A stretch of 64,000 nucleotides of DNA from a virus, in IMG/VR virus record IMGVR_UViG_3300021170_000011, positions 1-64,000 of that record; one strand, given 5' to 3'. Positions 2,535-45,672 of the stretch are shown piece after piece. A program made the translations under genes and the position numbers. Position 1 is the first letter of the stretch. Every line of letters begins with the position of its first letter. A model generated the notes under the pieces. That model searched no databases. It saw only the letters and a list, made by a program, of their open reading frames with translations, and had not been told where the DNA came from.

Positions 2535-4151
2535 ATGGGCAAGTTCAACAACCCGAAGATGTCGGCAGCGCCGACGGTCGCTAAGTCGCCGATGACCACC
2601 ACCGCGACCACCCGCACCGCACAGGGCGGCATCGGATACACCCGCGATACCCGTAGCGAGCTGCTGATGCTGGCCGTGTCCAACATGGTCGGTGAGGGCA
2701 CGTTCTACGAGACGGCCGGGAACCGGGACAACCGGTTCCGTGACCTGGTCCGCGCCGTTGCGGTCACCGACCCGGCGTGGATGGTCGGGTTCATCCCGTG
2801 GTTGCGTACCGGCGCCAAGATGCGGTCCGCGTCGATCGTCGCCGCCGCCGAGTCGGTGAAGGCCCGGCTGGACGCGAGCCTGCACGGCACCAACCGTCAG
2901 TTCATCGACGCCGCGTGCCAGCGGCCGGACGAGCCGGGCGAGTTCCTGGCGTACTGGACGTCCCACTACGGCCGCCGCCTCCCGATGCCGGTGAAGCGCG
3001 GCGTCGCCGACGCTGTCCGCCGCATGTACAACGGCAAGGCGTTCATCAAGTACGACTCGGACACGGCCGCGTACCGGTTCGCTGACGTGCTGGAGCTGGT
3101 CCACGCCAGCGCCGACCCGGAGAAGCCGTGGCAGGGCGACCTGTTCCGCTACATGATCGACAAGCGGCACAACCGCGACAACATCCGGGTGCCGGAGGGT
3201 AACAACACCATCGCCGCGTACGCCCACCTGATGGCGCAGGACAAGACCACCCGCCGTCAGATCCTCCTGGACGAGGCCGGGCCGTCCCGTCTCGCCGCTG
3301 CGGGTATGACGTGGGAGGCGCTGGCGGGCTGGTTGCAGGGCCCGATGGACAAGGCCGCATGGGAGGCGATCATCCCGAGCATGCAGCCGATGGCGCTCGT
3401 CAGGAACCTCCGGAACTTCGACCAGGCCGGTGTCTCCGACACCGTCGCCGATGCCATCTGCGCGCGGCTGGCGGACCCGGTGGAGATTGAGCGGTCCCGC
3501 ATGTTCCCGTACCAGTTGTTCTCGGCGTACAAGGCCGCGCCGTCGCTGCGGTGGGGACACGCGCTGGATAAGGCGTTGGGGCATGCGTGCGCCAACATCC
3601 CGGCGTTGGACGGCCGGACGCTGGTTCTGGTGGACACGTCCGGCTCGATGCAGCGTCCGGTGTCGGACCGGTCGCAGGTGCAGATGGTGGATGTCGGCGC
3701 GCTGTTCGGGGTGGCGTTGGCGTTGCGGGGTGCGTCGGTGGATCTGTTTGGCTGGGCGGATTCGGTGTTCCCGCACAACGTGATCAAGGGTGGGTCGGTG
3801 TTGAAGCAGACGGAGGCGTTTAACGCCAAGGTGGGGTCTGTGGGGCACGGTACGGACATGGTGGGGGCTATCCGTGCCACGTACCGTCAGGGCGTCCACA
3901 CGCGCGTTGTGGTGGTGTCTGACATGCAGGTGTGTGGCAGCGGCGGCTACTACGACACGGGGGCGTCTAAGGCGGTGCCGGATCATGTGCCGTTGTTCGG
4001 GATCAACATGGGCGGGTACAAGGCGACGGCGGTTGATTTGTCGAAGCCTAACCGGTTCGAGACGGGTGGGTTCTCGGACAAGATGTTCACGGTGATGGAT
4101 CTGTTGTCGCGGGGGAAGGATGCTGGTTGGCCGTGGGATACGGGGTTGTGA
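2535..4151 (+). CDS. Ro60 homologue (TROVE domain plus vWA domain), RNA-binding protein
   Basis: The 538-residue product has the two-part architecture of Ro60/Rsr. An N-terminal TROVE region of helical repeats starts near GGIGYTRDTRSELLML (residues 31-46), and a C-terminal von Willebrand A domain carries the MIDAS motif DTSGS (D367, S369, S371), a later GHGTDM threonine and a VVVVSDM strand. Ro60 is a ring that binds Y RNAs on its outer surface and single-stranded 3' ends of misfolded RNA in its cavity. GGAGGAG lies nine bases before the ATG. Six Y RNA candidates lie directly upstream and tRNA genes downstream, so it probably acts in RNA quality control or turnover during infection. Confidence 0.93.
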   Translation: MGKFNNPKMSAAPTVAKSPMTTTATTRTAQGGIGYTRDTRSELLMLAVSNMVGEGTFYETAGNRDNRFRDLVRAVAVTDPAWMVGFIPWLRTGAKMRSASIVAAAESVKARLDASLHGTNRQFIDAACQRPDEPGEFLAYWTSHYGRRLPMPVKRGVADAVRRMYNGKAFIKYDSDTAAYRFADVLELVHASADPEKPWQGDLFRYMIDKRHNRDNIRVPEGNNTIAAYAHLMAQDKTTRRQILLDEAGPSRLAAAGMTWEALAGWLQGPMDKAAWEAIIPSMQPMALVRNLRNFDQAGVSDTVADAICARLADPVEIERSRMFPYQLFSAYKAAPSLRWGHALDKALGHACANIPALDGRTLVLVDTSGSMQRPVSDRSQVQMVDVGALFGVALALRGASVDLFGWADSVFPHNVIKGGSVLKQTEAFNAKVGSVGHGTDMVGAIRATYRQGVHTRVVVVSDMQVCGSGGYYDTGASKAVPDHVPLFGINMGGYKATAVDLSKPNRFETGGFSDKMFTVMDLLSRGKDAGWPWDTGL

Positions 4152-4274: not shown

Positions 4275-4347
4275 ATCTCGGTAGCTCAACTGGTAGAGCG
4301 TCCGTCTCCAACACGGATGGTTGTGGGTTCAAGTCCTGCCCGAGGTG
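4275..4347 (+). tRNA. tRNA-Trp(CCA)
   Basis: Acceptor ATCTCGG/CCGAGGT, anticodon arm TCCGT-CTCCAAC-ACGGA, T-loop TTCAAGT, G73. The T-stem contains two G-U pairs. First tRNA of the main array. Confidence 0.93.
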
Positions 4348-4410
4348 CGAGGGATCCTGGGAGGTGCGTTCCGATGGCCGTCCTCCGGCGGTGGCCTACT
4401 GGGATCCCGA

Positions 4411-4483
4411 GCCTGTGTAGCCCAATGGAAGAGGCGTCGCGTTCAGATCGCGAATGTTGGGGGTTCGAATCCCTCCGCAGGTA
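4411..4483 (+). tRNA. tRNA-Leu(CAG), short variable loop
   Basis: Anticodon arm TCGCG-TTCAGAT-CGCGA, acceptor GCCTGTG/CGCAGGT, A73. The variable region is only 5-6 bases, whereas bacterial leucine tRNAs normally have a long variable arm. Confidence 0.88.
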
Positions 4484-4510
4484 CGCTAAACAACTGCATA
4501 TGCACGTCTA

Positions 4511-4582
4511 GTCTTCGTGGTGTAACGGATAGCTCAGCGGGCTACGAACCCGCAGGTGGAGGTTCGATTCCTTCCGGGGACA
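4511..4582 (+). tRNA. tRNA-Arg(ACG)
   Basis: Anticodon arm GCGGG-CTACGAA-CCCGC, acceptor GTCTTCG/CGGGGAC with two T-G pairs, A73. An A34 of this type is normally deaminated to inosine by TadA; no phage TadA is in the window. Confidence 0.93.
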
Positions 4583-4654
4583 CGCAACACGCTTAACGCT
4601 GTTTGAGAACTGCATAGTGAATGAACGTCGTCTTTGATGCGTAGCACATTTCTT

Positions 4655-4730
4655 CGTCATGTGGCCAAGTCTGGGTAAGGCACTTCCCTGATAAGGAAGA
4701 GATTCGTTGGTTCGAATCCAACCATGACGA
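4655..4730 (+). tRNA. tRNA-Ile(GAT)
   Basis: Anticodon arm CTTCC-CTGATAA-GGAAG, perfect acceptor CGTCATG/CATGACG, A73, T-loop TTCGAAT. Confidence 0.95.
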
Positions 4731-4798
4731 CGACAACCGGCGTTATCAGACGCCGGGGTCCGGGCGGATCACTCCTCAGGCTGCGTCCGCCCGTTAAT

Positions 4799-4872
4799 GC
4801 GCCTATAGCTCAATCCGGAAGAGCAGATGTTTTACACGCATCAGGTTCAAGGTTCAAATCCTTGTGGGCGTA
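4799..4872 (+). tRNA. tRNA-Val(TAC)
   Basis: Anticodon arm GATGT-TTTACAC-GCATC, acceptor GCGCCTA/TGGGCGT, A73. The preceding spacer holds an 8-bp hairpin, CGGGCGGA/TCCGCCCG. Confidence 0.94.
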
Positions 4873-4992
4873 CGGGCCACCTCTCCACGGGTGTGTACCC
4901 TGCCCGTTCCCTCCGGGTGCGGGTTTTGCTTGGGCTGTCAACCCGAGAGCGCGCGGATGCCATCCGGTCGGGGGTGTCGCGGTGCGCAACAA

Positions 4993-5065
4993 TGTCCTAT
5001 AGCTCAGTTGGCAGAGCAGTGGATTGTTAATCCACGGGTCGCAGGTTCGAGCCCTGCTGGGACAG
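4993..5065 (+). tRNA. tRNA-Asn(GTT)
   Basis: Anticodon arm GTGGA-TTGTTAA-TCCAC, acceptor TGTCCTA/TGGGACA, D-arm GCTC/GAGC, G73. Confidence 0.95.
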
Positions 5066-5149
5066 CGTCCTTGCGGACATACCGCAAACACCTAACGGTG
5101 ACGGTTCCCGTGCCCGTGCGGGCCCCAATGGTAAGGGGACACGGGGCTA

Positions 5150-5225
5150 GCTCCTATAACTCAATTGGCAGAGTACTTGACTCTTAATCAAGGAGTTCCC
5201 GGTTCGAACCCGGGTGGGAGTACCA
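5150..5225 (+). tRNA. tRNA-Lys(CTT), CCA encoded
   Basis: Anticodon arm CTTGA-CTCTTAA-TCAAG, acceptor GCTCCTA/TGGGAGT, A73 followed by an encoded CCA, unlike most tRNAs in the array. It complements tRNA-Lys(TTT) at 1940. Confidence 0.94.
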
Positions 5226-5283
5226 ACCCATGTTTCAGTGTGCGCACACTGGACGGGCTAAGGCGGGACAGCTACCCGCTGGA

Positions 5284-5349
5284 AGTGAACCTTGGTCAGG
5301 TAGGGCGCAAAACCGGCGCCTGAAGTTGGTTCGATTCCAACCGCTTCAC
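5284..5349 (+). other. non-canonical tRNA-like element
   Basis: A clear T-arm (GTTGG-TTCGATT-CCAAC) is followed by GCTTCAC, which pairs imperfectly with GTGAACC about 58 bases upstream. Between them is a GGCGC/GCGCC hairpin whose loop lacks T33 and a normal anticodon. At about 65 nt it is too short for a standard tRNA. It may be a decayed tRNA or a tRNA mimic; a palindromic hairpin lies upstream (CAGTGTGCGCACACTG). Confidence 0.4.
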
Positions 5350-5448
5350 GGGACCGGTGCGGTCACGCTCCGGTCGGCGACACTTCCGGTTATCCCAACG
5401 ACCCCATAGTGTCCCCTGATCTCGCCGAAAATGTGCGTGACACCTATT

Positions 5449-5521
5449 GCCTCTGTGGCGCAACGGATAGCGCAGCGCGCTTCTATCGCGACGGTTGCAG
5501 GTTCGAATCCTGCCAGGGGCA
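5449..5521 (+). tRNA. tRNA-Arg(TCT)
   Basis: Acceptor GCCTCTG/CAGGGGC, A73. Anticodon loop CTTCTAT in a CGCG/CGCG stem whose outermost pair is a G-A mismatch. T-arm GCAGG-TTCGAAT-CCTGC. Confidence 0.9.
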
Positions 5522-5614
5522 CGCGCAAGATCCGTATGCCGGGGGCTTTACTCCTTTCGACCCGGTTAGGATTGTAGGCCGGGGTAGGCGATCCCCCGTG
5601 CGCATGATCGCCGC

Positions 5615-5688
5615 GCCTCGGTAGCTCAGTCTGGTAGAGCAGCGCTCTCGTAAAGCGCAGGCCAAGGGTTCAAATCCCTTCCGTGGCT
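5615..5688 (+). tRNA. tRNA-Thr(CGT)
   Basis: Anticodon arm GCGCT-CTCGTAA-AGCGC, acceptor GCCTCGG/CCGTGGC with one T-T mismatch, T73. Confidence 0.92.
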
Positions 5689-5784
5689 CGCACTTACATC
5701 ACGTGTGGTGGACAGGTTGCGAATGGTGGACCGCGTGATGTGGGGAATGGGGTGGGTGGTCCCCCTGTGCAATGACCACCACAA

Positions 5785-5860
5785 GCCGCGTTGGTGTCAA
5801 TTGGTTCAACACGTCTGCCTTCCAAGCAGAAGACTGCCGGTTCGAACCCGGTACGCGGTA
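5785..5860 (+). tRNA. tRNA-Gly(TCC)
   Basis: Anticodon arm TCTGC-CTTCCAA-GCAGA, acceptor GCCGCGT/ACGCGGT, A73. One of three glycine isoacceptors in the array. Confidence 0.93.
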
Positions 5861-5875
5861 CGGATCCATATTCGA

Positions 5876-5951
5876 CGCCCATTGGGGGAGTTCGGTCGTC
5901 CCCGTCGGCCTCATAAGCCGAAGATCGCCGGTTCAAATCCGGCATGGGCTA
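5876..5951 (+). tRNA. tRNA-Met(CAT), initiator-like
   Basis: Anticodon arm TCGGC-CTCATAA-GCCGA, acceptor CGCCCAT/ATGGGCT, A73, D-stem GGGG/CCCC. Position 1-72 is a C-U mismatch; a non-Watson-Crick 1-72 pair is the hallmark of bacterial initiator tRNA (C-A in E. coli). The anticodon stem keeps two of the three initiator G-C pairs (G29, G30). A lysidine-type Ile2 tRNA is an alternative. Confidence 0.88.
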
Positions 5952-6064
5952 CAGGTCCGGTTGGCTATCCCAAGCGCACGTCCACTGAACCCGCGCGAGG
6001 TGGACATCGTTCAGGTGTGATAGGGACCCTGCGGGGAGCGTGGCTGACCGGGGCGCGCGGGACT

Positions 6065-6138
6065 GCCGTTGTGGGCGTAATCGGCAACGCCTCGTACTTG
6101 GTAAGTACGCGTTCCGGGTTCGAACCCCGGTGACGGCT
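6065..6138 (+). tRNA. tRNA-Thr(GGT)
   Basis: Anticodon arm CGTAC-TTGGTAA-GTACG, acceptor GCCGTTG/TGACGGC, T73, T-arm CCGGGTTCGAACCCCGG. Confidence 0.93.
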
Positions 6139-6222
6139 CGCACACGCCGAAACGCATTCCACCGCTGGGGTGTTTCGCGACGGCCGGGGCTGGCAGACCC
6201 CCGGAGTGCAGTGTCTGCCATG

Positions 6223-6294
6223 GTCCCTATAGCTCAGTTGGAAGAGCAACCGGTTGAAGCCCGGTGCGCGTAGGTTCGATTCCTGCTGGGGGCA
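6223..6294 (+). tRNA. tRNA-Phe(GAA)
   Basis: Anticodon arm ACCGG-TTGAAGC-CCGGT, acceptor GTCCCTA/TGGGGGC, D-arm GCTC/GAGC, A73. It is followed directly by the permuted Y-like RNA. Confidence 0.92.
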
Positions 6295-6465
6295 CGCGCA
6301 ACACCGTACGGTGGTCACCCGGGCTGGCATGCCCCGGGCGCAGCATGCCGATCCGTACCTGACTTGATCTCGGGGGCCACTGCCATCGTTCCCGATGCGA
6401 TAGGAACGGATACTTCTACAAAGTTCGGTATCCGAACCGGTGCGCGGTCGTGCACCCCGAGAGTT
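6295..6465 (+). ncRNA. topologically permuted Y-like RNA
   Basis: The two conserved strands of the Ro60-type stem occur in reverse order. The 3'-type strand ATCCGTACCT...GACTTGATCT-CGGG (6351-6374) comes first. It is joined by a 16-base linker to the 5'-type strand CCCG-ATGCGATAGG...GGATACTTC (6391-6416). CGGG/CCCG and GG(A)ACGGAT/ATCCGTACC pair as in the array at 1381-2492, and GACTTGATCTCGGG is identical to Y RNA 3. The Ro60 end is thus a closed loop and the tRNA-like end is open, with hairpins GGCATG/CATGCC on the left and GTTCGG/CCGAAC on the right. The outer ends are a guess set by the flanking tRNAs. Confidence 0.6.
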
Positions 6466-6536
6466 GCTGGTGTGGTGTAAAGGCCGCATATCACGTTGCC
6501 AACGTGGAGGAGCCAGTTCGATTCTGGTCGCCAGCT
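6466..6536 (+). tRNA. tRNA-Gly(GCC)
   Basis: Anticodon arm CACGT-TGCC core (loop TTGCCAA, stem CACG/CGTG), acceptor GCTGGTG/CGCCAGC, T73, T-arm CCAGTTCGATTCTGG. Confidence 0.92.
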
Positions 6537-6626
6537 CGGGCAGATCAACACCCTCCGAGGTGATGTCGCATCCGGCGCTGACATGCCGCCGGGCTCAACG
6601 CATGTCGCCCTGTCAACGAAGGGGAT

Positions 6627-6746
6627 GTGTTGTTTCATCTGCTGTTCGGTAAGCGCTGCACGTGCATGTGTGGCTGCTTCGTGTGCGCAGTCCATTCGCA
6701 CTTCCTGTGCCTGCGGAAGGGGCCACACACATGCACGAAAGGCTAA
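6627..6746 (+). CDS. small Cys-rich protein, about 39 aa
   Basis: A short frame (GTG 6627 or TTG 6630, preceded by GAAGGGG) encodes a peptide with eight cysteines, including CTCMCGCFVC. Its TAA overlaps the ATG of the next gene (TAATG), which supports real, coupled translation. The function is unknown; the cysteine spacing suggests metal binding. It resembles the following gene product, which also has a CxC...C pattern. Confidence 0.45.
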   Translation: MLFHLLFGKRCTCMCGCFVCAVHSHFLCLRKGPHTCTKG

Positions 6747-6871
6747 TGGCCTTTTTCCGGGAAACACTTCTCGGATGGAAATGCGGATGCTTGTGTAAGC
6801 GCTGCATTCCGGGGCCGATGTATTTCCACTGCGGAGCCAAGATCACGGGCTGTTTCCAACGCCCGAAGTAG
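6746..6871 (+). CDS. small Cys-rich protein, 41 aa
   Basis: ATG overlaps the stop of the preceding small gene. The product starts MAFFRETLLGWKCGCLC, then KRC, HCGAK and TGCF, giving six cysteines and a histidine in 41 residues, consistent with a small zinc-binding knuckle. No family recognised. Together with its partner it forms a two-gene cassette within the tRNA array, between tRNA-Gly and tRNA-Asp. Confidence 0.5.
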   Translation: MAFFRETLLGWKCGCLCKRCIPGPMYFHCGAKITGCFQRPK

Positions 6872-6906
6872 CACCAGGGGTCGGCGGCCCCCGCCAGCCG
6901 CCACAT

Positions 6907-6981
6907 GGTCCGTTGGAGGAGTCTGGAGTCCTCGCCACCCTGTCACGGTGGAAACCACGGGTTCGAATCCCGTACGGATCG
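6907..6981 (+). tRNA. tRNA-Asp(GTC)
   Basis: Anticodon arm CCACC-CTGTCAC-GGTGG, acceptor GGTCCGT/ACGGATC, G73, T-arm CGGGTTCGAATCCCG. Confidence 0.94.
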
Positions 6982-7101
6982 CGCGTCCGTTCCCGCTCTG
7001 GCCGTTTCCTGGCGGCCCGTGCGGGCCGTAGTGAACCGGTCGGCGGTTGCCGCTACGCACAAAGAACCGCATAGGGGATAGTCCAACCGGTAGTCCCCCC
7101 A

Positions 7102-7137
7102 CCCGAGTTACCGGATACAGGTACAGAAGGACTCGGG
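7102..7137 (+). other. short structured element, possibly Y-like
   Basis: CCCGAGT/ACTCGGG (7 bp) encloses TACC-GGATACA-GGTA and CAGAAGG. GGATAC on the left and CAGAA...ACTCGGG on the right echo the conserved Y RNA strands (GGATACTTC, CAGAACTCGGG), but the TTGCG block is missing. It may be a decayed Y stem or coincidence. Confidence 0.3.
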
Positions 7138-7141
7138 ACAT

Positions 7142-7216
7142 GGCGCATTGGGGCTGTCTGGAAAGCCCGTCTCCCTCTCAAGGAGAAGATCACCGGTTCA
7201 AATCCGGTATGCGCTA
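7142..7216 (+). tRNA. tRNA-Glu(CTC)
   Basis: Anticodon arm TCTCC-CTCTCAA-GGAGA, acceptor GGCGCAT/ATGCGCT, A73. Partner of tRNA-Glu(TTC) at 8685. Confidence 0.94.
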
Positions 7217-7292
7217 CGCGTCCCTGTCGTCCTGATGCGGAGCGGCGGGGGTGAACCGGGCAGGCAGTCCCCCGGCGCAAACGGGCTGCCGC

Positions 7293-7365
7293 GTCTTCGT
7301 AGCTCAACGGATAGAGCATCAGGTTCCGAGCCTGAAGGTTGCTGGTTCGAATCCAGCCGGGGACA
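7293..7365 (+). tRNA. tRNA-Arg(CCG)
   Basis: Anticodon arm TCAGG-TTCCGAG-CCTGA. The acceptor GTCTTCG/CGGGGAC is identical to that of tRNA-Arg(ACG) at 4511. A73. Confidence 0.94.
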
Positions 7366-7503
7366 CGTGCTCCTTCACGGTGTACGTATAGGTGCAGCCC
7401 CAATGTACGTGTGGGGCGAATGGTGGGCAGCCGGTGCCGTGACCGGTCCACCCCTAGTGGCCGCCGGGCTATGTCCCCGATCCAGACAGAACCGGTGGCC
7501 CGC

Positions 7504-7576
7504 GCATCCGTGGTCTAGTGGCCTATGACACCGCGTTCCCAACGCGGTAACGCCGGTTCGAATCCGGCCGGGTGCT
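7504..7576 (+). tRNA. tRNA-Gly(CCC)
   Basis: Anticodon arm CCGCG-TTCCCAA-CGCGG, acceptor GCATCCG/CGGGTGC, T73. Confidence 0.94.
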
Positions 7577-7756
7577 CAAACCCAATGGGGACTAGTCGAA
7601 GGTAATTGGGGTCCGTGGCTAGCTGGCCCCGGTTGAGATCTTCCCCCTGCGGGTTTCAACGGACGTTCCCGGTGTGGTTGGAGCGCGACTCCCCACCCCA
7701 ACAGCGTGGCCCGTTCCGCCTGTCGCGAATGCGGTTCGGGGCCGGGGATGTCCAAT

Positions 7757-7829
7757 GCTTCCGTGGCCCAATGGCAGAGGCACAACGTTGAGGGCGTTGA
7801 CGGTGCGGGTTCGACTCCCGCCGGAAGTA
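7757..7829 (+). tRNA. tRNA-Leu(GAG), short variable loop
   Basis: Anticodon arm CAACG-TTGAGGG-CGTTG, acceptor GCTTCCG/CGGAAGT, A73. As in the other leucine tRNAs here, the variable region is only about five bases. Confidence 0.9.
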
Positions 7830-8102
7830 CGCGCGTCGTACATCCCTTTTGGGGGTGCGGAGAACCCGGGTTGGTGGACCCACCGGGGCGCACATGTCCA
7901 CCATTTGATAACAGGGCGCCGAGGCCTGGTCGGGATACGGATGCGGATTTCGCTAGTACCGGGATTAACGTGTTGCCGTATGCCCGGGAGAATGTGAAGC
8001 ACCCGGCGGGCCGCCCACATATAAAGAAACAGTGATGGTCACGTGGAAATCGTCGTTCCGGTGCAACCGCCATGATGGGCGGTAGTCCGGTCGGCCATCC
8101 GA
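7830..8102 (+). other. longest tRNA spacer (no gene seen)
   Basis: I see no convincing coding frame or RNA gene. The stretch contains inverted repeats, for example GGTGGAC (7873-7879) with GTCCACC (7896-7902). Similar hairpins occur in most spacers of the array and may mark RNA processing. Confidence 0.5.
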
Positions 8103-8177
8103 TGCCCTGTGGCGCAATTTCGGCAGCGCACCCGGCTCTGAACCGGGTGGTTCCAGGTTCGAATCCTGGCGGGGCAG
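8103..8177 (+). tRNA. tRNA-Gln(CTG)
   Basis: Anticodon arm CCCGG-CTCTGAA-CCGGG, acceptor TGCCCTG/CGGGGCA, G73. Confidence 0.94.
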
Positions 8178-8301
8178 CGCGTGCGCTGAAGGTGTGGGAC
8201 GGAATCCGAATGACACCCCACATTGTCAAAGTGTCACAGGCTGGTAGGTCGGAGAGGCAGCCCGCACGCGAACTACATGGCCGTTCGGTTGGGAGAGTTT
8301 A

Positions 8302-8514
8302 GTGTCCGCTCGTTGTGATCTGTGCGGCAAGGGGCCGGGTTTCGGCAACAACGTGTCGCGGCTGGGTGTCAATGCGACACACCGGCGTGTCAAGGGTAGG
8401 TCTGGCCGGATGTTCCGTGCGAACATCCAACGGGCCCGCGTCGCGGTGGGTGGTGTGACACGGCAGGTGAACGCCTGCACGGGCTGCATCAAGAAGTCCG
8501 TCACCCGCGCGTAG
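8302..8514 (+). CDS. rpmB: ribosomal protein bL28 homologue
   Basis: The 70-residue product matches bL28 from end to end: CDLCGKGPGFGNNVS (5-19), a basic THRRVKGR core, ANIQRARV (40-47) and a terminal CTGCIKK (59-65). C5, C8, C59 and C62 form the zinc ribbon of the CxxC...CxxC type found in many actinobacteria. bL28 is a large-subunit protein near the exit-site tRNA region and links 23S rRNA elements. GTG start with GGGAGAG upstream. The gene sits inside the tRNA array, so it travels with other translation components and may enter host ribosomes; that is inference. Confidence 0.85.
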   Translation: MSARCDLCGKGPGFGNNVSRLGVNATHRRVKGRSGRMFRANIQRARVAVGGVTRQVNACTGCIKKSVTRA

Positions 8515-8520
8515 ACGATT

Positions 8521-8591
8521 TGCCCTCTCGTCCAACGGCAGGACACCGGGTTTTGGCCCCGGCAACGCAGGTTCGAATCCTGCGGGGGCAG
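8521..8591 (+). tRNA. tRNA-Gln(TTG)
   Basis: Anticodon arm CCGGG-TTTTGGC-CCCGG, acceptor TGCCCTC/GGGGGCA, G73. It begins six bases after the bL28 stop. Confidence 0.93.
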
Positions 8592-8684
8592 CGGCATACG
8601 TTCGATGCAGAACATGCGGTGGTCGTGCATGACGGTAACGCCCGGGTACAGGAAGTCATGACCCACAATCCCGGGGACCACGAT

Positions 8685-8758
8685 GGCGCGTTAGAGGAAT
8701 AGGTAGACTCACCGGCCTTTCAAGCCGGGATTTGCGGGTTCGAGCCCCGCACGCGCTA
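8685..8758 (+). tRNA. tRNA-Glu(TTC)
   Basis: Anticodon arm CCGGC-CTTTCAA-GCCGG, acceptor GGCGCGT/ACGCGCT, A73. Confidence 0.93.
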
Positions 8759-8969
8759 CGTCGTCGCTACCGGTCCACGCGCAGGCTTTCGGTGTTCGTC
8801 ACGGGATGACGGGCCGGGGCCGGGCCGGGGCGCCGACTCCAAAGACAACCCCGCTGTCGTGGCGGGGAGGGCGGAAGCGGCATTACGCGTCCCTGCTAGT
8901 CCGCCTCGGGAGTCCGGAGAGAAGAGTTGGACCGGATAGGCCGGTACGTGGGGTAGACCGGCGCACATA

Positions 8970-9046
8970 GCCCATGCCTTTATCTCGCTGGCAGCGGGAA
9001 CGCGTCTGCAAAACGCGTTGTACGGGGTTCAATTCCCCCATGGGCC
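8970..9046 (+). tRNA. tRNA-Cys(GCA)
   Basis: Perfect acceptor GCCCATG/CATGGGC. The anticodon arm is an extended 7-bp AACGCGT/ACGCGTT stem around CTGCAAA. C73 rather than the usual T73 of cysteine tRNA. Confidence 0.9.
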
Positions 9047-9048
9047 TC

Positions 9049-9131
9049 GGGTGATAGGTGACTGTTGGTTGGTCTCAGCAGACTGTAAATCTGCCGCTTC
9101 GGCCTCGGGGGTTCAATTCCCTCATCACCCA
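9049..9131 (+). tRNA. tRNA-Tyr(GTA)
   Basis: Anticodon arm GCAGA-CTGTAAA-TCTGC, acceptor GGGTGAT/ATCACCC, A73, with the long variable arm normal for bacterial tyrosine tRNA. It begins two bases after tRNA-Cys. Confidence 0.94.
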
Positions 9132-9268
9132 CGCGCAAGGGCTCGTTCCCCCTGTTGGACGGCTGGCATGCCCGTTGCGCATTGCATGCCACACCTGTAC
9201 CCGTCCCGGTTCTCACGCGGGATGGTGGCGGACGACCCCGTTCTGATGTCAGTCGGGACGGTGGCCGT

Positions 9269-9343
9269 GCTTCCGTAGCCCAATCCGGCAGAGGCGATGG
9301 ATTCAAAATCCATAGGTTGTCGGTTCGAATCCGACCGGAAGTA
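9269..9343 (+). tRNA. tRNA-Leu(CAA), short variable loop
   Basis: Anticodon arm ATGGA-TTCAAAA-TCCAT, acceptor GCTTCCG/CGGAAGT shared with tRNA-Leu(GAG), A73, five-base variable loop. Last tRNA of the main array. Confidence 0.9.
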
Positions 9344-9408
9344 CGTGACACGCGCTGAACCCCCGTACAGCGCGTGTCCGTAGATCGTTTGGTTGACCGG
9401 AGGAAACC

Positions 9409-9816
9409 ATGCAGACGCCCAATGACGACGCCCCCACGACCGTCCCTGACGGCATGAACGACGCTGCCACGCCGACTGTCTACCCCATCCCGGATGAGTT
9501 GCTGCCGCTGTTCAGGGACCGGGGCGTGGTTGTCCCCGACCTGTGGTGGTGGTCGTTCGACACGTTCCTCGTGAAACTGGTCGAGGCCGCCGCCACCAAA
9601 CTGATCAACGACGGCTGCGGCTACCCCTGTAGCCACATCATCCCCAGCGACAACCCGTGTACCTGCGAGGCCGACTGGCGGACGTACCTGGAGGGTATCC
9701 GCGACGACCTCGCCGGGTACGACAAGTTCGCGTCCTACGCCACAGCCGAACAGTACGAGCGGGTGCAGAACGCGATGCGCCGCATGATCGACAGGATGGG
9801 CAACTGGTGGGACTGA
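9409..9816 (+). CDS. hypothetical protein, 135 aa
   Basis: Unrecognised acidic protein. The ATG follows GGAGG by five bases. Mid-protein cysteines (CGYPCSH...NPCTC, residues about 68-85) could bind metal. The C-terminal half is helical and charged. It is the first protein gene after the tRNA array and is followed by two small Cys-containing genes and an RNA ligase with tight or overlapping junctions, so probably the same operon. Confidence 0.7.
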   Translation: MQTPNDDAPTTVPDGMNDAATPTVYPIPDELLPLFRDRGVVVPDLWWWSFDTFLVKLVEAAATKLINDGCGYPCSHIIPSDNPCTCEADWRTYLEGIRDDLAGYDKFASYATAEQYERVQNAMRRMIDRMGNWWD

Positions 9817-9986
9817 AGTGCCGCTGGTGTTTCCGGCCGATGAAACAATGCATCGAGGGCGAGTGGGCGGACGTGACCCGGCTGCCGGTGTGGCTGTTGC
9901 GGGCCATCCGCGCAACCCGGGTTCTGCGTCCGGTGGAATCGTGGTGGGTGACGCACGTGGGACGTCGCCGCGTCCCTAGGCGGTAG
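9807..9986 (+). CDS. small zinc-finger-like protein, 59 aa
   Basis: GTG 9807 overlaps the end of the preceding gene. The product begins MGLKCRWCFRPMKQC, a CxxC plus Cys pattern, and is otherwise Arg- and Trp-rich. No family recognised. Its position between two other small Cys-bearing genes and ahead of the RNA ligase suggests an RNA-related accessory role, but nothing in the sequence proves this. Confidence 0.55.
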   Translation: MGLKCRWCFRPMKQCIEGEWADVTRLPVWLLRAIRATRVLRPVESWWVTHVGRRRVPRR

Positions 9987-17168: not shown

Positions 17169-17639
17169 ATGGGCGCATCACTAGCACAACGCGCAGCCAC
17201 CGCCGACCGCCGACGCAAAGCAATCGCACTCCGCCTAGCAGGCGCACAATACGAACAGATTGCAGAACAACTCGGCTACGCCGACCGAGGCGCCGCATAC
17301 AACGACATCCGACGATCCCTGGAACAAAACCTCAAAGAAGGATCCGCCGACGGCGAAACCCTCCGCGAACTCAACCGACTCCGCATGGAACGGCTGATCG
17401 TCGCATCATGGAGCGCAGCCACCAACGGCGACCAGAAAGCCATCGAAACCACCCGGCGGCTCATCGAATCGTTGAACAAGATGTACGGCATCGGCACCAC
17501 CATGCGCGTCGAACACATCACCATTGACGCGGTGGACGCGGAGATTGCCCGTCTGCAAGAGAAGCTGGCTGACAATGACCGACGACTTGGAAACGTACCG
17601 GTTGGAGAGGCTTCAACTCCTTCAAGAATTGAAGCGTAA
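17169..17639 (+). CDS. terS: terminase small subunit (likely)
   Basis: The 156-residue product starts with a helix-turn-helix (RKAIALRLAGAQYEQIAEQLGYADRGAAYNDIRRSLE, residues 16-51), then a helical oligomerisation region, as in small terminases that recognise packaging sites. Its 3' end overlaps the large terminase start by 65 bases in another frame. The assignment rests on HTH plus position, not on a strongly conserved motif. Confidence 0.75.
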   Translation: MGASLAQRAATADRRRKAIALRLAGAQYEQIAEQLGYADRGAAYNDIRRSLEQNLKEGSADGETLRELNRLRMERLIVASWSAATNGDQKAIETTRRLIESLNKMYGIGTTMRVEHITIDAVDAEIARLQEKLADNDRRLGNVPVGEASTPSRIEA

Positions 17640-19188
17640 AGAAGCCGAACAAGAGGCAGCGAAGTATGCACGCATGGACGTGTTCGCTGTTCTCGGTTAC
17701 GAACCAAACTGTACGGTCCGGGCCAGAGCACGGGACGCGGGCATGGCAGAAGACTGCCTGCCCGCCCCGTGCGGGATGTGCCCGCAGGAGCTGTTCCACG
17801 CCGCTACCGAATCCGATGTGCTGTACGGCGGCGCGGCTGGTGGCGGGAAGTCCGTGGCTATCGTCATGGAAGCGATGAAGAACGCGGTTCGGCATCCGGG
17901 GATCCGGATTCTGTTGCTGCGGCGGACGTTCGACGAGTTGGCGGAGTCGATCTTCCCTGTGCTTCGCCGCTACCGGTACGGCAACGCCCTGGGTGCCCGG
18001 TGGAATGGCACGGAGAAGGAGCTGCGCTGGCCGAACGGCAGTGTTTTGCGATGCCGGTATCTGGAGTCGGCGGAGGACGCGTCACGCCGTCAGGGCGGCG
18101 GGTATCAGCTTCTCCTTGTTGATGAGGCCACGTTGATGCCGCCGGGTGCGGTGGACATCATCAAGTTTGAGCGTCTGCGGTCGGGTGACGGGGTGCCGGT
18201 GATCGGTACCCGGATGACGTGCAACCCGGGTGGTCCGTCGCATGGTGAGGTGAAGAAGCGGTATATCGAGGCCACCGACTACGGCAAACACATCGTCCAT
18301 GATGAGGGCGGCCTGACGCGGCGGTTCATTCAGGCGAAGGCCACGGACAACCCGCACTTGGATGCGGGGTACAGGCACCGTCTGGATCAGATTCCGGACC
18401 CGGACCGTCGTGCGGCGATGCGTGACGGCGACTGGGACCGGTGGGCGGGGCAGATGTTCCCGGAGTTGTCGCGGGACAGGCATGTGGTGTTCCCGATGGA
18501 GTTGCCGTCGTCGTGGCGGCGCTATGCCGGGGTTGACTGGGGCTACACGGCGCCGTGGGCGGTGGTGTGGGGCGCGTTGGATGAGGACAAGCGTCTGTGG
18601 GTGTACAGGGAGCTGTATGCGACGCAGGTGGGCGAGAAGGACCAGGCGTTGCGGATTAAGGCGGCGGAGGGTTCGGAGCGTCCACGGCGGTTCGCTGACG
18701 ATGCGCTGTGGGCTACCCGTGGTGACGCTAAACCGATTGCGACTATCTACACGGAGAACGGGGTTCATCTGGAGGAGGCGGGGAAGGGTCCGGGGTCCCG
18801 GATTGCCGGGTGGCAGCGGATCCACTCGTTCCTCGCTGATGCGCCTGCGTGTCTGTTTCACCGGTCGCAGGGTCTTGAGGAATGCCCGATGATCCACATT
18901 TTTGATTCGTGTACTGAGTTGCTGCGGGAGTTGCGGGACCTTCCGCACGCGTCCAGCGGCAACATTGAGGACGCGGACACCAAGGCCAGTGATCACGCTG
19001 CGGACGCCCTGCGGTACATGGTGATCAACCTGGGTGTGGATCAGCGGTTCCACTGGCCGAAGGACAATCCGGCGGCGTCGCGGGAGATTGATCCTGGGGC
19101 GCGTGGGGAGTTCACACCGGCGTATGCGGGTCAGACTATCGGCGGTTTCCCGGTGCTGCACCCGTCAGGCAACCCGTGGGGCCTGTAG
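17575..19188 (+). CDS. terL: terminase large subunit
   Basis: The 537-residue protein has Walker A GGAAGGGKS (85-93), Walker B LLLVDEA (180-186; D183, E184), a coupling motif region GTRMTCNPGG and an RNase H-like nuclease domain with AGVDWGY (about 320) and DADTKASDHAADALRY (acidic residues near the end). It translocates DNA into the prohead and cuts concatemers. ATG 17575 is preferred to an upstream ATG because the Asp/Glu-rich N-terminus fits the family and the frame overlaps terS. Its stop is followed by a bidirectional terminator, ending the rightward block. Confidence 0.95.
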   Translation: MTDDLETYRLERLQLLQELKRKEAEQEAAKYARMDVFAVLGYEPNCTVRARARDAGMAEDCLPAPCGMCPQELFHAATESDVLYGGAAGGGKSVAIVMEAMKNAVRHPGIRILLLRRTFDELAESIFPVLRRYRYGNALGARWNGTEKELRWPNGSVLRCRYLESAEDASRRQGGGYQLLLVDEATLMPPGAVDIIKFERLRSGDGVPVIGTRMTCNPGGPSHGEVKKRYIEATDYGKHIVHDEGGLTRRFIQAKATDNPHLDAGYRHRLDQIPDPDRRAAMRDGDWDRWAGQMFPELSRDRHVVFPMELPSSWRRYAGVDWGYTAPWAVVWGALDEDKRLWVYRELYATQVGEKDQALRIKAAEGSERPRRFADDALWATRGDAKPIATIYTENGVHLEEAGKGPGSRIAGWQRIHSFLADAPACLFHRSQGLEECPMIHIFDSCTELLRELRDLPHASSGNIEDADTKASDHAADALRYMVINLGVDQRFHWPKDNPAASREIDPGARGEFTPAYAGQTIGGFPVLHPSGNPWGL

Positions 19189-30194: not shown

Positions 30195-30599
30195 CTACGG
30201 CAACCAGTCAAGCCCTACGTAGAACCGGATGGCGTTCATATCCCGCTTATCCAACCCAACATGCGGATCGGTACCTACGAACAGGGCACGGCGGCCGGTC
30301 GCATGGACCCGGTCGGCTAGGTCCGGCATCGCCTGCCCGTGGAACATGTCGTCCACCCACACCAGCGGCCGTGGCGCGCCGTACAGCGGCACCTGGTCCT
30401 TACTGACCACCGGCAGATCCGGCAGCCCCAGATCTGGGGACAGTTCAGTGTTGGCCTGGTAGCCCCATGACGTGGCCCATACGAGTTCGCAGGTGTCAGA
30501 CAGTTCCCGTAGCCACACGCCGTGTTCCGGGTTGAGTTCGAAATCTCCCCGGAACGGCAACAGGACACCGTCCACGTCTAACGCAATGACTGGTTTCAC
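30195..30599 (-). CDS. HAD-superfamily phosphatase (Swiss Army Knife RNA repair type)
   Basis: 134 residues; the catalytic motif ALDVDGVLLP (residues 6-15, D8 and D10), WATSW for motif II and PLVWVDD (acidic motif IV). The compact cap-less form matches HAD domains catalogued with RNA repair proteins, which remove terminal phosphates. It is leftward and ends two bases from the convergent tRNA-Ser gene. Given the ligases and kinase in the window, a 3'- or 2',3'-phosphate RNA substrate is plausible; nucleotide phosphatase activity is the alternative. Confidence 0.75.
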   Translation of the reverse strand: MKPVIALDVDGVLLPFRGDFELNPEHGVWLRELSDTCELVWATSWGYQANTELSPDLGLPDLPVVSKDQVPLYGAPRPLVWVDDMFHGQAMPDLADRVHATGRRALFVGTDPHVGLDKRDMNAIRFYVGLDWLP

Positions 30600-30635
30600 A
30601 GTTCCTCCGTCAATGGCCGCCGTGGGCTGCCCCTG

Positions 30636-30833
30636 CTAGAGGCGGTAGCCGGGTGAGGTGGTGCGTGCGGCGTTTTCGAACGTGTCCAGCCGCCGCCGCA
30701 GTTCCCGGCATTCCTGGTACAGCCGGTGGAGTTCCCGTACAAGCGCCCGCATCGCCTCAACCGACATGTACATGCCCGGCTGCGCATTCTCCAACGCCGC
30801 CAGCAACGCCGGGAATTCGTCTTGGTTATCCAT
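30636..30833 (-). CDS. small coiled-coil protein, 65 aa
   Basis: A Leu/Glu/Arg-rich heptad pattern (VEAMRALVRELHRLYQECRELRRRLDTFENA, residues 25-55) predicts a coiled coil. No family recognised. The start has only a weak TTAGGG upstream. It lies between the HAD gene and the divergent MuF gene; a longer frame in another phase on the same strand is less protein-like. Confidence 0.5.
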   Translation of the reverse strand: MDNQDEFPALLAALENAQPGMYMSVEAMRALVRELHRLYQECRELRRRLDTFENAARTTSPGYRL

Positions 30834-30857
30834 GCCCTAATCGTAGGAGGTTGGTTC

Positions 30858-32345
30858 ATGGCTGATCAGCCAGACGTCAAAGACGGCGTGATGATTGCCC
30901 TGTATCCGTCGGCCACCGACACGGCCCGCTATGTCCTGATCGATGGGACACCGGCGGACGAGATGCACGTGACGATGGTGTACCTGGGGCACACGGACGA
31001 GGTCGATGCGGACGCGGTGAAACGTGCCGTCGGCGCGTTGGCGCCGCGTCCGGCGTTCACCGCCAACGTGTCCGGTCATGCCCGGTTCACCGGTGATGAA
31101 CAGGACGTGATCGTTGCGTTGATCGACGCCCCGGAGATTGAGCAGCTACGGCGGGACCTGATCGACGTGCTAGCCATCGAGGACATCGGCAACGCCTCCG
31201 ACCACGGGTACACGCCGCATATGACGTTGATGTACGTCAACCCCGACGATCCGGCGCCGTTCCGGCGGCTGGACACCGACCCCATCGGGTTCGACACCGT
31301 GTGGGTGGTGTATGGGGAGGAGCGGACGGCGTTTCCGCTGTCAGACGACACTGCCGAATCCATCCGCCCGTACGCCCGCACCGCCTACGCGCAGGGCTGG
31401 GCCGCATCGGGCGGCCCGATGACTGATGAGGTCCGGGCGGGGTGTATCGCGGTCATGGACCTGTGTGTGGAACACGCCCACGAACCGGATGTCCTGGAGG
31501 TCGCGCTTCACCTGGGGCATTTGGAGGGTGTGTGGGCGCAGGTGTTCGCACGCCGGGAGGCCCTGTACAGGGCGCATATTCATGCGGTGTTGAAGGCGTG
31601 GCGGGCTGCGTTGGACGGCGTGGACGTCGCCGGGGCCGTCCAGATCTTCCGCCAACAGGTCGGCCTGTCTGAGGCGGTGGACCGGGAGGCGCTGCGTCGC
31701 ATGAAGGAGGCGGCTAGAAACGCCGCTGTGCGCCTGTTGCAGTGGGTCCCGGGTAAGGCGGCGTGGCAGGGGCTGCGGGACGCTATGCGGGCTGTGGTGA
31801 CGTCTGGGCGGGCTGAGGGGTATGCGTCGGCGTTGGCGGTTGCGGCGTCGAAACAGCAGATGATCGGCTTCGACTTCGACATTGCGTTCCAACACGCCTA
31901 TGACGCCATGGAGAACCTGGGTGATGCGTGGGCGGCGGCTGATCCGTGGTTGGAGCGGATGGTGGGGCGGGCGGCGGACGAGTTCGGCCGGACACTAGGG
32001 GATCTCGCATCACAGGGCGCCGACTATGAACAGATGGTCGCGGCCGGGCTGGACGTGTTGCAGGACACCACGGCGGACAGGGACATTGTCGGGTTCATTG
32101 TGGACTGGGCGGCGTCTACCGGCATGTCTAGGGGCGCGTTGGACCTGTATGCGTCTGAGGGTGTGCAGCAGGTGTCTTGGCTGACCGCCGGTGACGGCCG
32201 TGTGTGTCCTGTGTGTGAGACCAACGGGCAGGAATCGCCGTTCCTGATCACCGACTTCCCGACGATGCCCGCGCATCCGCTGTGCCGGTGTGTGGCGTCA
32301 GCGGAGTTCACTCTTTCCCCCGACTACGGGGGTTTCTTCACGTAG
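30858..32345 (+). CDS. 2H phosphoesterase fused to MuF-like minor head protein
   Basis: 495 residues. Residues 1-165 form a 2H phosphoesterase: HVTMVYLG (H37, T39) and HMTLMYV (H121, T123) are the paired H-x-T motifs, 84 residues apart as in 2'-5' RNA ligase/cyclic phosphodiesterases. Residues 330-495 are MuF-like, ending with GDGRVCPVCETNGQ...MPAHPLCRC, the Cys motif of head morphogenesis proteins next to the portal. A long helical linker joins them. MuF proteins are packaged in the head and can be injected, so the enzyme may enter the cell with the DNA; that is inference. GGAGG precedes ATG 30858. Confidence 0.85.
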   Translation: MADQPDVKDGVMIALYPSATDTARYVLIDGTPADEMHVTMVYLGHTDEVDADAVKRAVGALAPRPAFTANVSGHARFTGDEQDVIVALIDAPEIEQLRRDLIDVLAIEDIGNASDHGYTPHMTLMYVNPDDPAPFRRLDTDPIGFDTVWVVYGEERTAFPLSDDTAESIRPYARTAYAQGWAASGGPMTDEVRAGCIAVMDLCVEHAHEPDVLEVALHLGHLEGVWAQVFARREALYRAHIHAVLKAWRAALDGVDVAGAVQIFRQQVGLSEAVDREALRRMKEAARNAAVRLLQWVPGKAAWQGLRDAMRAVVTSGRAEGYASALAVAASKQQMIGFDFDIAFQHAYDAMENLGDAWAAADPWLERMVGRAADEFGRTLGDLASQGADYEQMVAAGLDVLQDTTADRDIVGFIVDWAASTGMSRGALDLYASEGVQQVSWLTAGDGRVCPVCETNGQESPFLITDFPTMPAHPLCRCVASAEFTLSPDYGGFFT

Positions 32346-41660: not shown

Positions 41661-41875
41661 TAGTCGTCTGCCCCTCCGTGGTCGTCTTCCAAATGCCAGT
41701 TCCACAGCATGTGCCAGGCGTCACGGCGCCGCTTGAACACCTTCCGCCACCCGCACTCACACCCGGCGATCCAGCGGTGACGACGCAGACACCAGCCGTT
41801 GCCGCACTCCTGCTTCAGGTCGGACAGGTGAACGCGGGTGACGTCGATGAACGGCCGGGGCTTAAAAGTCGCCAT
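41660..41875 (-). CDS. small zinc-finger-like protein, 71 aa
   Basis: Cys/His arrangement C-x4-C...H...CECGW...H...H (residues about 24-66) resembling a treble-clef or C2H2-type finger; basic overall. It lies between macro domain and kinase genes, overlapping both, and may bind nucleic acid. Family unknown. Confidence 0.62.
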   Translation of the reverse strand: MATFKPRPFIDVTRVHLSDLKQECGNGWCLRRHRWIAGCECGWRKVFKRRRDAWHMLWNWHLEDDHGGADD

Positions 41876-42782
41876 AGTTCACCTGCCAGCACTCCAGACC
41901 CATCCGCCGCCACAGGGCCACAACCCGGTCCCGGTCGTCCAGCACGAACCGGACGTCGTACAGGTCGCGAACGTGGGCGTCGAACAGTTCGGCCTTCACG
42001 ATGTCGTCGCCGCGCCGGTCGCCCTCGGCCCGCATCCACAGCTCGTCGTACACGATGCCGTTATCGTCCAACCACCGCTCGGTGTGGGCCCGGTATTCGG
42101 ACTGACGGCCGGACAGGAGGATGATGCGGTCCCGGATCCCGCCCCAGCCGCCGCTGTTGCGGCACAGGTCGAGGATCCGCCGAACCTCCGGGTTCACCAG
42201 GTCGGTTCCGACCTGTTCGAAGTCGTAGGGGCCGCGTCCGTTGTGGATCGCCAACGTTCCGTCGATGTCGCAGATGACCGCCGGGGGCAACGCGTCGTTG
42301 CGGCGGTACGGCTCCGGCGCCACCATATCGTTCATGGGGTGGCTGGCCAGTCGCCACTTGCTGCGACGCATCCGCTCGTGCATGTCCTTGATGACCGCCG
42401 GGCCCACGGACCGTTCCCGTGCCTGGTCGCGGTCAATGCAGGTGTCCACGGGCACGTGGGTGAAGTCGTGGATGTGGAACGTTGCCCGGCCGCCGACGAG
42501 CCGCTTGTACCGGTTCGGCAGGCGCGCGACAAGGTGGGTGTTGTCAACGATGATGTCGAATCCGTCGTTGATGGCGCCGAGGATCGCGGCGTCCTGCACC
42601 TTCAGCACAGTGTCCTCGTTGGCGCCGGGGAACCGGCGGGACCCGTCGTTCAGGTCCATCATCATGCGGATGTCGTCGAGGTTGACGCGGCGGACACGGC
42701 CGTTGGATTCGGCAACGAGCTTGTTGGCGTAGGTGGTTTTCCCGGATGCGGGCAAACCGGTGGTCAAATGGATGGTGGACAC
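41862..42782 (-). CDS. pseT: polynucleotide kinase-phosphatase (T4 Pnkp/PseT-like)
   Basis: 306 residues in T4 Pnkp order: an N-terminal kinase with P-loop GLPASGKTT (9-17), acceptor-site D-x-x-R (NLDDIR), and lid RDQARERSVG; then a HAD phosphatase with CDIDGTLA (D172, D174), LLSGRQSEY and VLDDRD. The enzyme removes 3' and 2',3'-cyclic phosphates and adds 5' phosphates, preparing cleaved tRNA for ligation. The ligase gene lies 1.2 kb upstream in the same leftward operon. Length matches T4 Pnkp (301). Confidence 0.92.
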   Translation of the reverse strand: MSTIHLTTGLPASGKTTYANKLVAESNGRVRRVNLDDIRMMMDLNDGSRRFPGANEDTVLKVQDAAILGAINDGFDIIVDNTHLVARLPNRYKRLVGGRATFHIHDFTHVPVDTCIDRDQARERSVGPAVIKDMHERMRRSKWRLASHPMNDMVAPEPYRRNDALPPAVICDIDGTLAIHNGRGPYDFEQVGTDLVNPEVRRILDLCRNSGGWGGIRDRIILLSGRQSEYRAHTERWLDDNGIVYDELWMRAEGDRRGDDIVKAELFDAHVRDLYDVRFVLDDRDRVVALWRRMGLECWQVNYGDF

Positions 42783-43310: not shown

Positions 43311-44006
43311 CTAGTCCTCGGTGTCGTAGGTGTAGTGGTGGTTGCGGACGCGTAGGAGCCATTGTTCGGCGGTGTCGCGGTCGGGGTGGTCGGGCAGGGG
43401 TGTCCCATCCCCATCCATGATCATTTCGACGCCGTGGATGTAGTCGTGGCCCTGGAGCGGGTGGGCGAGTATCCAGTCGGCGAGGTCCCGGACCATGTCG
43501 GGGTCCTTCAGCCGGACCGTCAGTTGCCCGGTGGTGTACAGCTCCCGGCCCTGTTCGAGGAGCCGGATGATGTGCCGGGCGTGTTTGGCCGCGCGGCGTT
43601 CCGGGATGTCGGCGGCGAACGACCCGTTGCCGCGTGCGATCAGTTTCCCGAGCTGCTGCCGGGCGTACCCGATATAGGCGTCACGGACCTGACGGCCGCA
43701 CAGGAACGCGTCCCGGATCCCGACGAGTTCGGCGCCGAGTTGGGTGATGAAGTCGTACTGGTCGAGCCACAGCAGCTCGTTCACCGACGGGTTGCCGTTC
43801 AGGGCCAGCCGCACAAACTTCCCGGCCTCATGCATGGTGCTGTCGGGGTCGTGGGTGACCATCGACTCTTGGGGTTTCGTCAGCCCGTGGAACGCGATGG
43901 TGGGGGCTGCGAACACGCCCAGCGTGTCCACGTCGGACTCGGGGGTGTCGAGGCCGTAGGCGGTTGATCCGACAATGCCCTTCAACAGGGTGTTGACGGC
44001 GGTCAC
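43311..44006 (-). CDS. RlaP-type nucleotidyltransferase (RNA-repair-associated pol beta family)
   Basis: 231 residues. GSTAYGLDTPESDVD (13-27) is the nucleotidyltransferase G-S...D-x-D motif in the form typical of the RlaP family (catalytic D25, D27), and the rest is helical with HARHIIRLLEQG and HPLQGHDYIH. RlaP proteins are found next to RNA ligases and were proposed to add nucleotides to damaged RNA ends. GTG 44006 overlaps the ligase stop (TAGTG), so the pair is tightly coupled, supporting this reading. Confidence 0.82.
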   Translation of the reverse strand: MTAVNTLLKGIVGSTAYGLDTPESDVDTLGVFAAPTIAFHGLTKPQESMVTHDPDSTMHEAGKFVRLALNGNPSVNELLWLDQYDFITQLGAELVGIRDAFLCGRQVRDAYIGYARQQLGKLIARGNGSFAADIPERRAAKHARHIIRLLEQGRELYTTGQLTVRLKDPDMVRDLADWILAHPLQGHDYIHGVEMIMDGDGTPLPDHPDRDTAEQWLLRVRNHHYTYDTED

Positions 44007-45262: not shown

Positions 45263-45672
45263 TGCTTCTCCTTTTGCACGGCCGTGGCCGCGTCGTATGC
45301 GTTCTTGAAAAACAGGTTGTTTTTCAGGTCGGGGCGGCTGGCGAGGAACGCGTGGAACACGTAGGCGTCGTTCTGGAACATGCGTCCGATGTTGCTGGGT
45401 GTCAGCCACCGGCACACGTCGGCGTCGGTGAGGTTCCAGGTGACGGGGTCGGTGACGCGGGTTCCGGAGTTGGGGCGGGCGGTGAGCATGCCCTTCCCCT
45501 CCATCAGCCGCAGTGCCTCCCGGAACGCGGTCCGGGACACGCCCAGTTCCGTCCGCAGCTTGTCCGGGTCGATCCGTTCCCCCGGCGTGTATTTGCCGTT
45601 GGCGATCCACTGGCCGATCCATTCGGCGCATTGCCACGTGCGTGTGGTGATGCGTGGCGTGTATTCGGTCAC
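45259..45672 (-). CDS. GntR-family winged-helix regulator
   Basis: 137 residues. WIANGKYTPGERIDPDKLRTELGVSRTAFREALRLMEGKGMLTARPNSGTRVTDP (24-78) is a textbook GntR wHTH domain. The C-terminus (PSNIGRMFQNDAYVFHAFLASRPDLKNNLFFKNAYDAA) is too short for a full FCD effector domain, so it is a reduced regulator. It lies directly upstream of and overlapping the RNA ligase gene and probably regulates this operon or a host gene. Confidence 0.85.
   Translation of the reverse strand: MTEYTPRITTRTWQCAEWIGQWIANGKYTPGERIDPDKLRTELGVSRTAFREALRLMEGKGMLTARPNSGTRVTDPVTWNLTDADVCRWLTPSNIGRMFQNDAYVFHAFLASRPDLKNNLFFKNAYDAATAVQKEKQ

Follow-up and report, generated by a model that had tools for sequence, protein, structure and literature searches.

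The stretch of DNA analysed here, referred to as the window, comprises 64,000 nucleotides (positions 1 to 64,000) of the IMG/VR virus record IMGVR_UViG_3300021170_000011. The full record is 99,994 bases long and carries terminase, portal, major head and tape-measure genes, so that the gene for ribosomal protein bL28 found in it sits in a genuine virus genome and is phage-encoded, as the initial annotation had stated. The features are as follows:

2535–4151, plus strand: Ro-like (TROVE) RNA-binding protein, 41–44% identical to Streptomyces and Gordonia phage proteins among the matches listed
4275–9344, plus strand: predicted tRNA array that contains the bL28 gene
8103–8178, plus strand: tRNA-Gln(CTG), upstream neighbour of bL28
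8291–8297, plus strand: SD-like sequence GGGAGAG, a putative ribosome-binding site that ends 4 bases upstream of the bL28 GTG
8302–8514, plus strand: bL28 gene with GTG start and TAG stop, 70 amino acids, C+ (Cys4) type, assigned from the ORF and profile matches
8314–8325, plus strand: first zinc pair C5-x2-C8, from the alignment
8359–8406, plus strand: enlarged loop, residues 20–35, 16 residues long against 7 in Actinomycetota bL28, from the alignment
8476–8487, plus strand: second zinc pair C59-x2-C62, from the alignment
8521–8592, plus strand: tRNA-Gln(TTG), beginning 6 bases past the bL28 stop codon
10168–11328, plus strand: RNA ligase, directly after the tRNA array
17524–19188, plus strand: terminase large subunit (TerL), a phage hallmark
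34795–36180, plus strand: major head protein, a phage hallmark
52457–55888, plus strand: tape measure protein, with matches all in Mycobacterium and Arthrobacter phages

The bL28 encoded by the ORF at 8302–8514 is full-length and has all four cysteines of its Cys4 zinc site. It passes the cut-offs of both family profiles, with 44.8 bits for Pfam PF00830 (cut-off 27, E 1.3e-11, profile positions 2–55 of 60) and 56.3 bits for NCBIfam TIGR00009 (cut-off 48.3, E 3.3e-15, positions 1–57 of 58). Against a profile of cellular bL28 it scores 76.6 bits; the top score of the shuffle control is 12.0 bits (1991 scored of 2000 shuffles made), and the second-best score among 1189 six-frame stretches of at least 30 amino acids in the window is 10.4 bits. 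The closest solved chain is bL28 of the Streptomyces fradiae 50S subunit (9qt5_X, E 4.3e-14). For the AlphaFold model, which is of moderate confidence (pLDDT 66.8), the top five Foldseek matches in the PDB are bL28 chains of actinobacterial ribosomes (probability 1.00, E 0.003–0.008), and none of the BFVD viral structures matches it at E < 0.001. A PHROGs search gives a weak match limited to residues 1–18 (E 0.0065).

None of the zinc ligands C5, C8, C59 and C62 is missing, which is also true of 31 of 31 cellular C+ rows of our alignment, and the protein retains GPGFGN and FRANIQ unchanged. Conservation was counted over these cellular C+ proteins (36 cellular rows less five, namely L067 and the C− rows), in which 31 columns reach 80% or more; the window protein agrees with 22 of these columns and departs from the conserved residue in nine, including H20R, R37M and P40A. 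It is very basic, with 15 lysines and arginines and a single acidic residue in 70. The initial annotation had described a full-length bL28 with an intact zinc ribbon, placed between tRNA-Gln genes in a window with 34 tRNAs, and all of this is reproduced here. Three things had escaped it: the nine residues added to one loop, the sister gene carried by another phage, and the three tRNAs that the record has beyond the window.

The 34 tRNAs of the window (1609–30195) represent all 20 amino acids, and the remainder of the record (L082, 9614–11054) raises the count to 37. No promoter-like site was found between 7800 and 9100. bL28 is the sole ribosomal protein in a Pfam scan of 110 of the 152 small ORFs listed, and a scan of 78 of the 103 larger ORFs gave no ribosomal protein among the 25 of 34 families listed. 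Other genes point to RNA metabolism, namely the Ro-like protein, RNA ligases, a Pnkp-like protein and further domains of RNA-repair type. The Pnkp-like kinase/phosphatase lies close to a T4 Rnl1-type RNA ligase (41862–42782 and 44006–45637, both on the minus strand), and the two may correspond to the kind of tRNA repair pair that acts against host tRNA-cutting defences. The interval 30195–32345, next to the second tRNA cluster, includes a HAD domain of the RNA repair protein type; it also encodes a protein resembling 2'-5' RNA ligases, whose match to Acb1 is below threshold. The record further encodes Lsr2 (E 5.9e-17) among its larger ORFs and has a small ORF with a weak Tad2-like (anti-Thoeris) match. 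In L081 (6071–6976, minus strand), a phage protein shows a strong match to a DNA-binding domain of the LuxR/GerE type.

The host phylum of the window phage is likely Actinomycetota, judged from gene and tRNA similarities. The tape measure protein matches 146 records, 144 of Mycobacterium and two of Arthrobacter phages. Listed TerL matches are mostly Arthrobacter phages at 33–38% identity; over all 931 matching records, Pseudomonas phages are the most numerous. Phages of Streptomyces and Gordonia have tRNA-Phe and tRNA-Asp genes similar to those of the window, and among the matches listed the Ro-like protein points to the same two phage groups. The portal, with 57 matching records (Moraxella 22, Arthrobacter 19, Thermus 6), gives no clear host signal, and the head protein matches four Leptospira phage records only, at 25.5% identity.

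A relative is found in another virus. L001, an IMG/VR contig of 57,301 bases, encodes a 71-residue sister bL28 that is 58% identical to the window protein over the tblastn segment and 56% in alignment A4. This protein scores 72.7 bits against the cellular-bL28 profile, carries the same four zinc ligands and keeps 21 of the 31 conserved columns. Because the contig has its own terminase together with portal, primase and exonuclease genes, we regard it as a different phage; its portal belongs to a PHROG family other than that of the window portal and has matches in 848 phage records, of which almost all come from phages of Actinobacteria. A tRNA-Lys lies downstream of the L001 gene, and in both phages an SD-like site precedes an intact bL28 ORF. 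In the L001 terminase (7636–9900, minus strand) the conserved parts are separated by a long, putatively intein-like insert, which is accompanied by an HNH-like ORF in a different frame. For the two bL28 genes, 67 codons can be compared. They specify 38 identical residues, 23 of which use a different codon, and dN is 0.44 against a dS of 2.73, a ratio of about 0.16 that comes from a single pair with saturated dS. These values point to purifying selection on phage bL28, and together with the codon differences they indicate that two unrelated phages have each maintained bL28 at the protein level. Given the sister gene, the 56–58% identity and the signs of purifying selection, the window gene does not appear to be freshly captured host DNA.

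Both phage proteins share an enlarged loop. The nine additional residues lie between GNNVS and the R-x-F-x-x-N-I-Q motif, so that the distance from the first cysteine to the asparagine of NIQ is 36 in the window protein and in L001. All 25 Actinomycetota loci compared, the best 25 of 344 matching genomes (396 searched), have a distance of 27. The genome scan gives the same value for 68 of its 69 loci, counted without L050, which is cut at a contig end; the exception is L067 with 40. Loop length is variable among 15 Chloroflexota-type loci as well, taken from the phylum of L030 (Chloroflexota in the GTDB sense): ten have a distance of 27 and five of 35, and in these five (L111, L112, L116, L119 and L123) the loop is 8 residues longer and differs in sequence. 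In the phylum of the MAG Gpa_12, to which L067 belongs and which may be Planctomycetota, an extension of 13 residues is present in 10 of 10 loci (73 of 149 genomes matched). In solved ribosomes of Thermus and Deinococcus, bL28 likewise has 13 extra residues at this place, so long loops are tolerated by the ribosome.

The phage loop nevertheless differs from these long-loop types. Like the phage pair, the Gpa_12-phylum proteins (L067, L125–L134) begin the loop with R-x-G and end it with R-x-F-(R/K)-x-N-(I/L)-Q. The extension of 13 residues in the Thermus, Deinococcus and Gpa_12-phylum proteins includes a GGVG-like segment, whereas both phages have nine residues and show a four-residue alignment gap in place of this segment. 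For this reason we do not assign phage bL28 to the Thermus/Deinococcus/Gpa_12 type. Thermus and Deinococcus bL28 moreover lack the first CxxC pair, which the phage protein has. Actinomycetota C+ bL28 shares the Cys4 zinc site and the GPGFGNNVS core with the phage protein and differs from it by the nine loop residues and by one residue more near the C-terminus. The phage loop by itself, used as a pattern on the genome collection, gave 182 stretches, none of them confirmed. A 28-residue loop query returned no matches in 396 Actinomycetota genomes, which is a weak test, since the same query detects L001 at 1.3e-7 and the long-loop gene of the L067 genome only at 0.098.

The donor phylogeny proposed by the initial annotation does not single out a donor. 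In alignment A4 the window protein is 41–54% identical to Actinomycetota C+ rows, and with the loop columns removed the identity of the body is highest to Actinomycetota, at up to 59%. When the Gpa_12 phylum is left out of the tree, the phage pair (97/97) falls among Actinomycetota, outside the Chloroflexota group (99/94). When this phylum and the loop columns are included, the pair joins the Gpa_12 phylum with 97/92. Without the loop columns nothing is resolved, and neither placement is rejected (p-AU 0.486 for the Gpa_12 phylum, 0.37 for Actinomycetota). The trees rest on 57–83 columns, too few to settle the donor, with several near-identical rows dropped, and as they disagree by the rows and columns used, we name none. 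Phage bL28 may be a mosaic, or its loop may be convergent.

The initial annotation had called a viral bL28 unusual, and the searches support its rarity. In 50,697 phage records, tblastn with the window protein gave seven matches, all in 'UNVERIFIED' human-fecal scaffolds at no more than 42% identity, which we treated as bacterial; the L001 protein as query returned the same seven. These fecal 'Bacteriophage sp.' records (L074–L080; MT835478, MT835750, MT835961, MT835705, MT838712, MT837068 and MT838469) resemble pieces of bacterial chromosomes. In four of them the neighbours of bL28 are housekeeping genes (FakA and Asp23 in one, HPr kinase in two, RecA in one); in the other three, one neighbour each was tested and gave no Pfam family. 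An E. coli bL28 query matched 13 phage records and one viral contig (L084), and several of these matches are 96–100% identical to the query, as expected of bacterial DNA. IMG/VR scans require exact short peptide matches, so that diverged genes can escape them; with the phage bL28 sequences they found L001 only, the L001 protein found L001 again, and scans with TerL and with Actinomycetota, fecal-scaffold and Gpa_12-phylum bL28 gave no matches. The Streptomyces phage GiJojo resembles the window phage in having a tRNA array around a Ro-like gene, and the Ro-like genes of GiJojo and pSt2308 are 43–44% identical to that of the window. Neither phage has a bL28 match in tblastn of the window protein, and between the two tRNA-Gln genes of GiJojo there is no bL28 ORF. 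An insertion site common with GiJojo, based on the tRNA-Gln(CTG) and tRNA-Gln(TTG) neighbours, was considered and dropped, the tRNA-Gln matches being only 0.68 and 0.61.

We infer from the sequence that the phage may adjust ribosome composition, as the initial annotation had suggested. Our preferred reading, to which we give a probability of roughly 55%, is that phage bL28 is made together with the phage tRNAs and is built into the 50S subunit in place of the short-loop bL28 of the host. The protein would be expressed during infection along with the tRNA array, would enter 50S subunits that are assembled or repaired in the infected cell, and would there replace the host copy. The reading is favoured by the profile scores, the fold matches, the retained zinc ligands, the L001 sister and the setting among tRNA, RNA ligase and Ro-like genes. 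The long loops of Thermus and Deinococcus ribosomes and the entry of a phage bS21 into E. coli ribosomes add to it. The nine altered conserved columns may speak against incorporation, and the negative promoter result at 7800–9100 against joint expression with the tRNAs. Since bL28 is absent from the list of loosely bound, exchangeable proteins in the available part of PMC6375957, its replacement may also need new assembly.

The retained zinc site and most of the core residues would also suit a protein that simply supplies the host function and sustains 50S assembly under host transcription shut-off, with no special role for the loop. The tRNAs and RNA repair genes of the same genome would then be further translation supplies. 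We hold this only tentatively, as a loop common to two unrelated phages and unlike that of 25 Actinomycetota proteins suggests that it is kept for a reason. The altered conserved residues and a long stem branch, as well as the small and very basic nature of the protein and the tRNA genes near bL28 in both phages, could instead reflect a bL28 fold that has left the ribosome and now acts either as a regulator or as a binder of phage RNA, such as the precursors of the array tRNAs. This is improbable in our view, given that the four zinc ligands, GPGFGN and FRANIQ are all retained and that long loops also occur in other ribosome-bound bL28 proteins.

The phage protein being of C+ type, it might also serve to shift host ribosomes off the zinc-free C− form, a hibernation-linked form to which mycobacteria turn when starved of zinc. 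In the available parts of PMC9976891 and PMC10085706, Mycobacterium smegmatis and Cutibacterium acnes own both C+ and C− bL28. Such a counter-measure leaves the loop unexplained, and bL28 is the only C+/C− protein carried, with no other ribosomal protein in the Pfam scan of the 110 small ORFs; we consider it quite unlikely. Phage tRNA arrays acquire foreign genes, and this general behaviour would fit a bacterial gene that was captured recently or is decaying; an assembly chimera would be another form of passenger. A mere passenger is nevertheless very hard to reconcile with the L001 sister, the dN/dS ratio, the intact ORF and SD-like site in both phages, and the failure of all 182 pattern stretches to yield a cellular gene with the phage loop.

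If phage bL28 is built into the ribosome, its basic, enlarged loop could lie near the E-site of the 50S subunit and change the handling of deacylated tRNA or of E-site inhibitors, an idea we put forward with considerable reserve and by analogy. The available part of PMC13372681 places the site of the E-site antibiotic manikomycin, from Streptomyces rimosus, at H13, H21, H88 and bL28. Superposed T. thermophilus bL28 clashes with manikomycin there, and the legend is silent on which part of bL28 is involved. Thermus bL28 is long-looped and the M. smegmatis chain is short-looped; from this and the clash the loop would face the E-site. It is conceivable, though rather doubtful, that Actinomycetota phages refit the 50S subunit in this way, either with an E-site suited to their own 20-amino-acid tRNA set or with streptomycete E-site inhibitors excluded.

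Viral ribosomal proteins are established as a class (PMC6375957, PMC13157829, PMC9723584 and PMC7162821, each in its available part). PMC6375957 reports 14 proteins in all, among them bS21, bL12, bL9, bL31, bL33, bS6, uS9, uS15 and HPF, and phage PhiMa05 carries bS1, bL21, bL27, bL33, uL11 and uL1 (PMC13157829). In the main text of these two papers, as far as available, bL28 is not named as viral; 'L28' occurs in PMC6375957 in a reference title only, and in the available part of PMC9067925 host L28 serves only as a fluorescent marker. We found no report of a phage bL28 in the open-licence literature covered, which does not extend to the supplement with the 14 proteins of PMC6375957. Within the same literature, incorporation of a viral ribosomal protein into host ribosomes is shown for phage bS21 only, the HTVC008M protein being incorporated into E. 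coli ribosomes (PMC9976891 and PMC9723584, available parts).

Phage bL28 resembles the known viral ribosomal proteins, as described in the available parts of these sources, in that there is usually one per genome, that it is apparently under purifying selection and that a swap into host ribosomes is proposed. According to PMC6375957 (available part), most viral ribosomal proteins would be of the loosely bound, exchangeable kind, and those favoured by viruses are given as bS21, bL12, bL9, bL31 and bL33. With a loop shape unlike that of the Actinomycetota proteins compared, the bL28 of two unrelated phages would bring a structurally different part to the ribosome rather than a further supply of a host one. 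A protein of 70 residues with an obvious loop deletion makes phage-specialised ribosomes directly testable.
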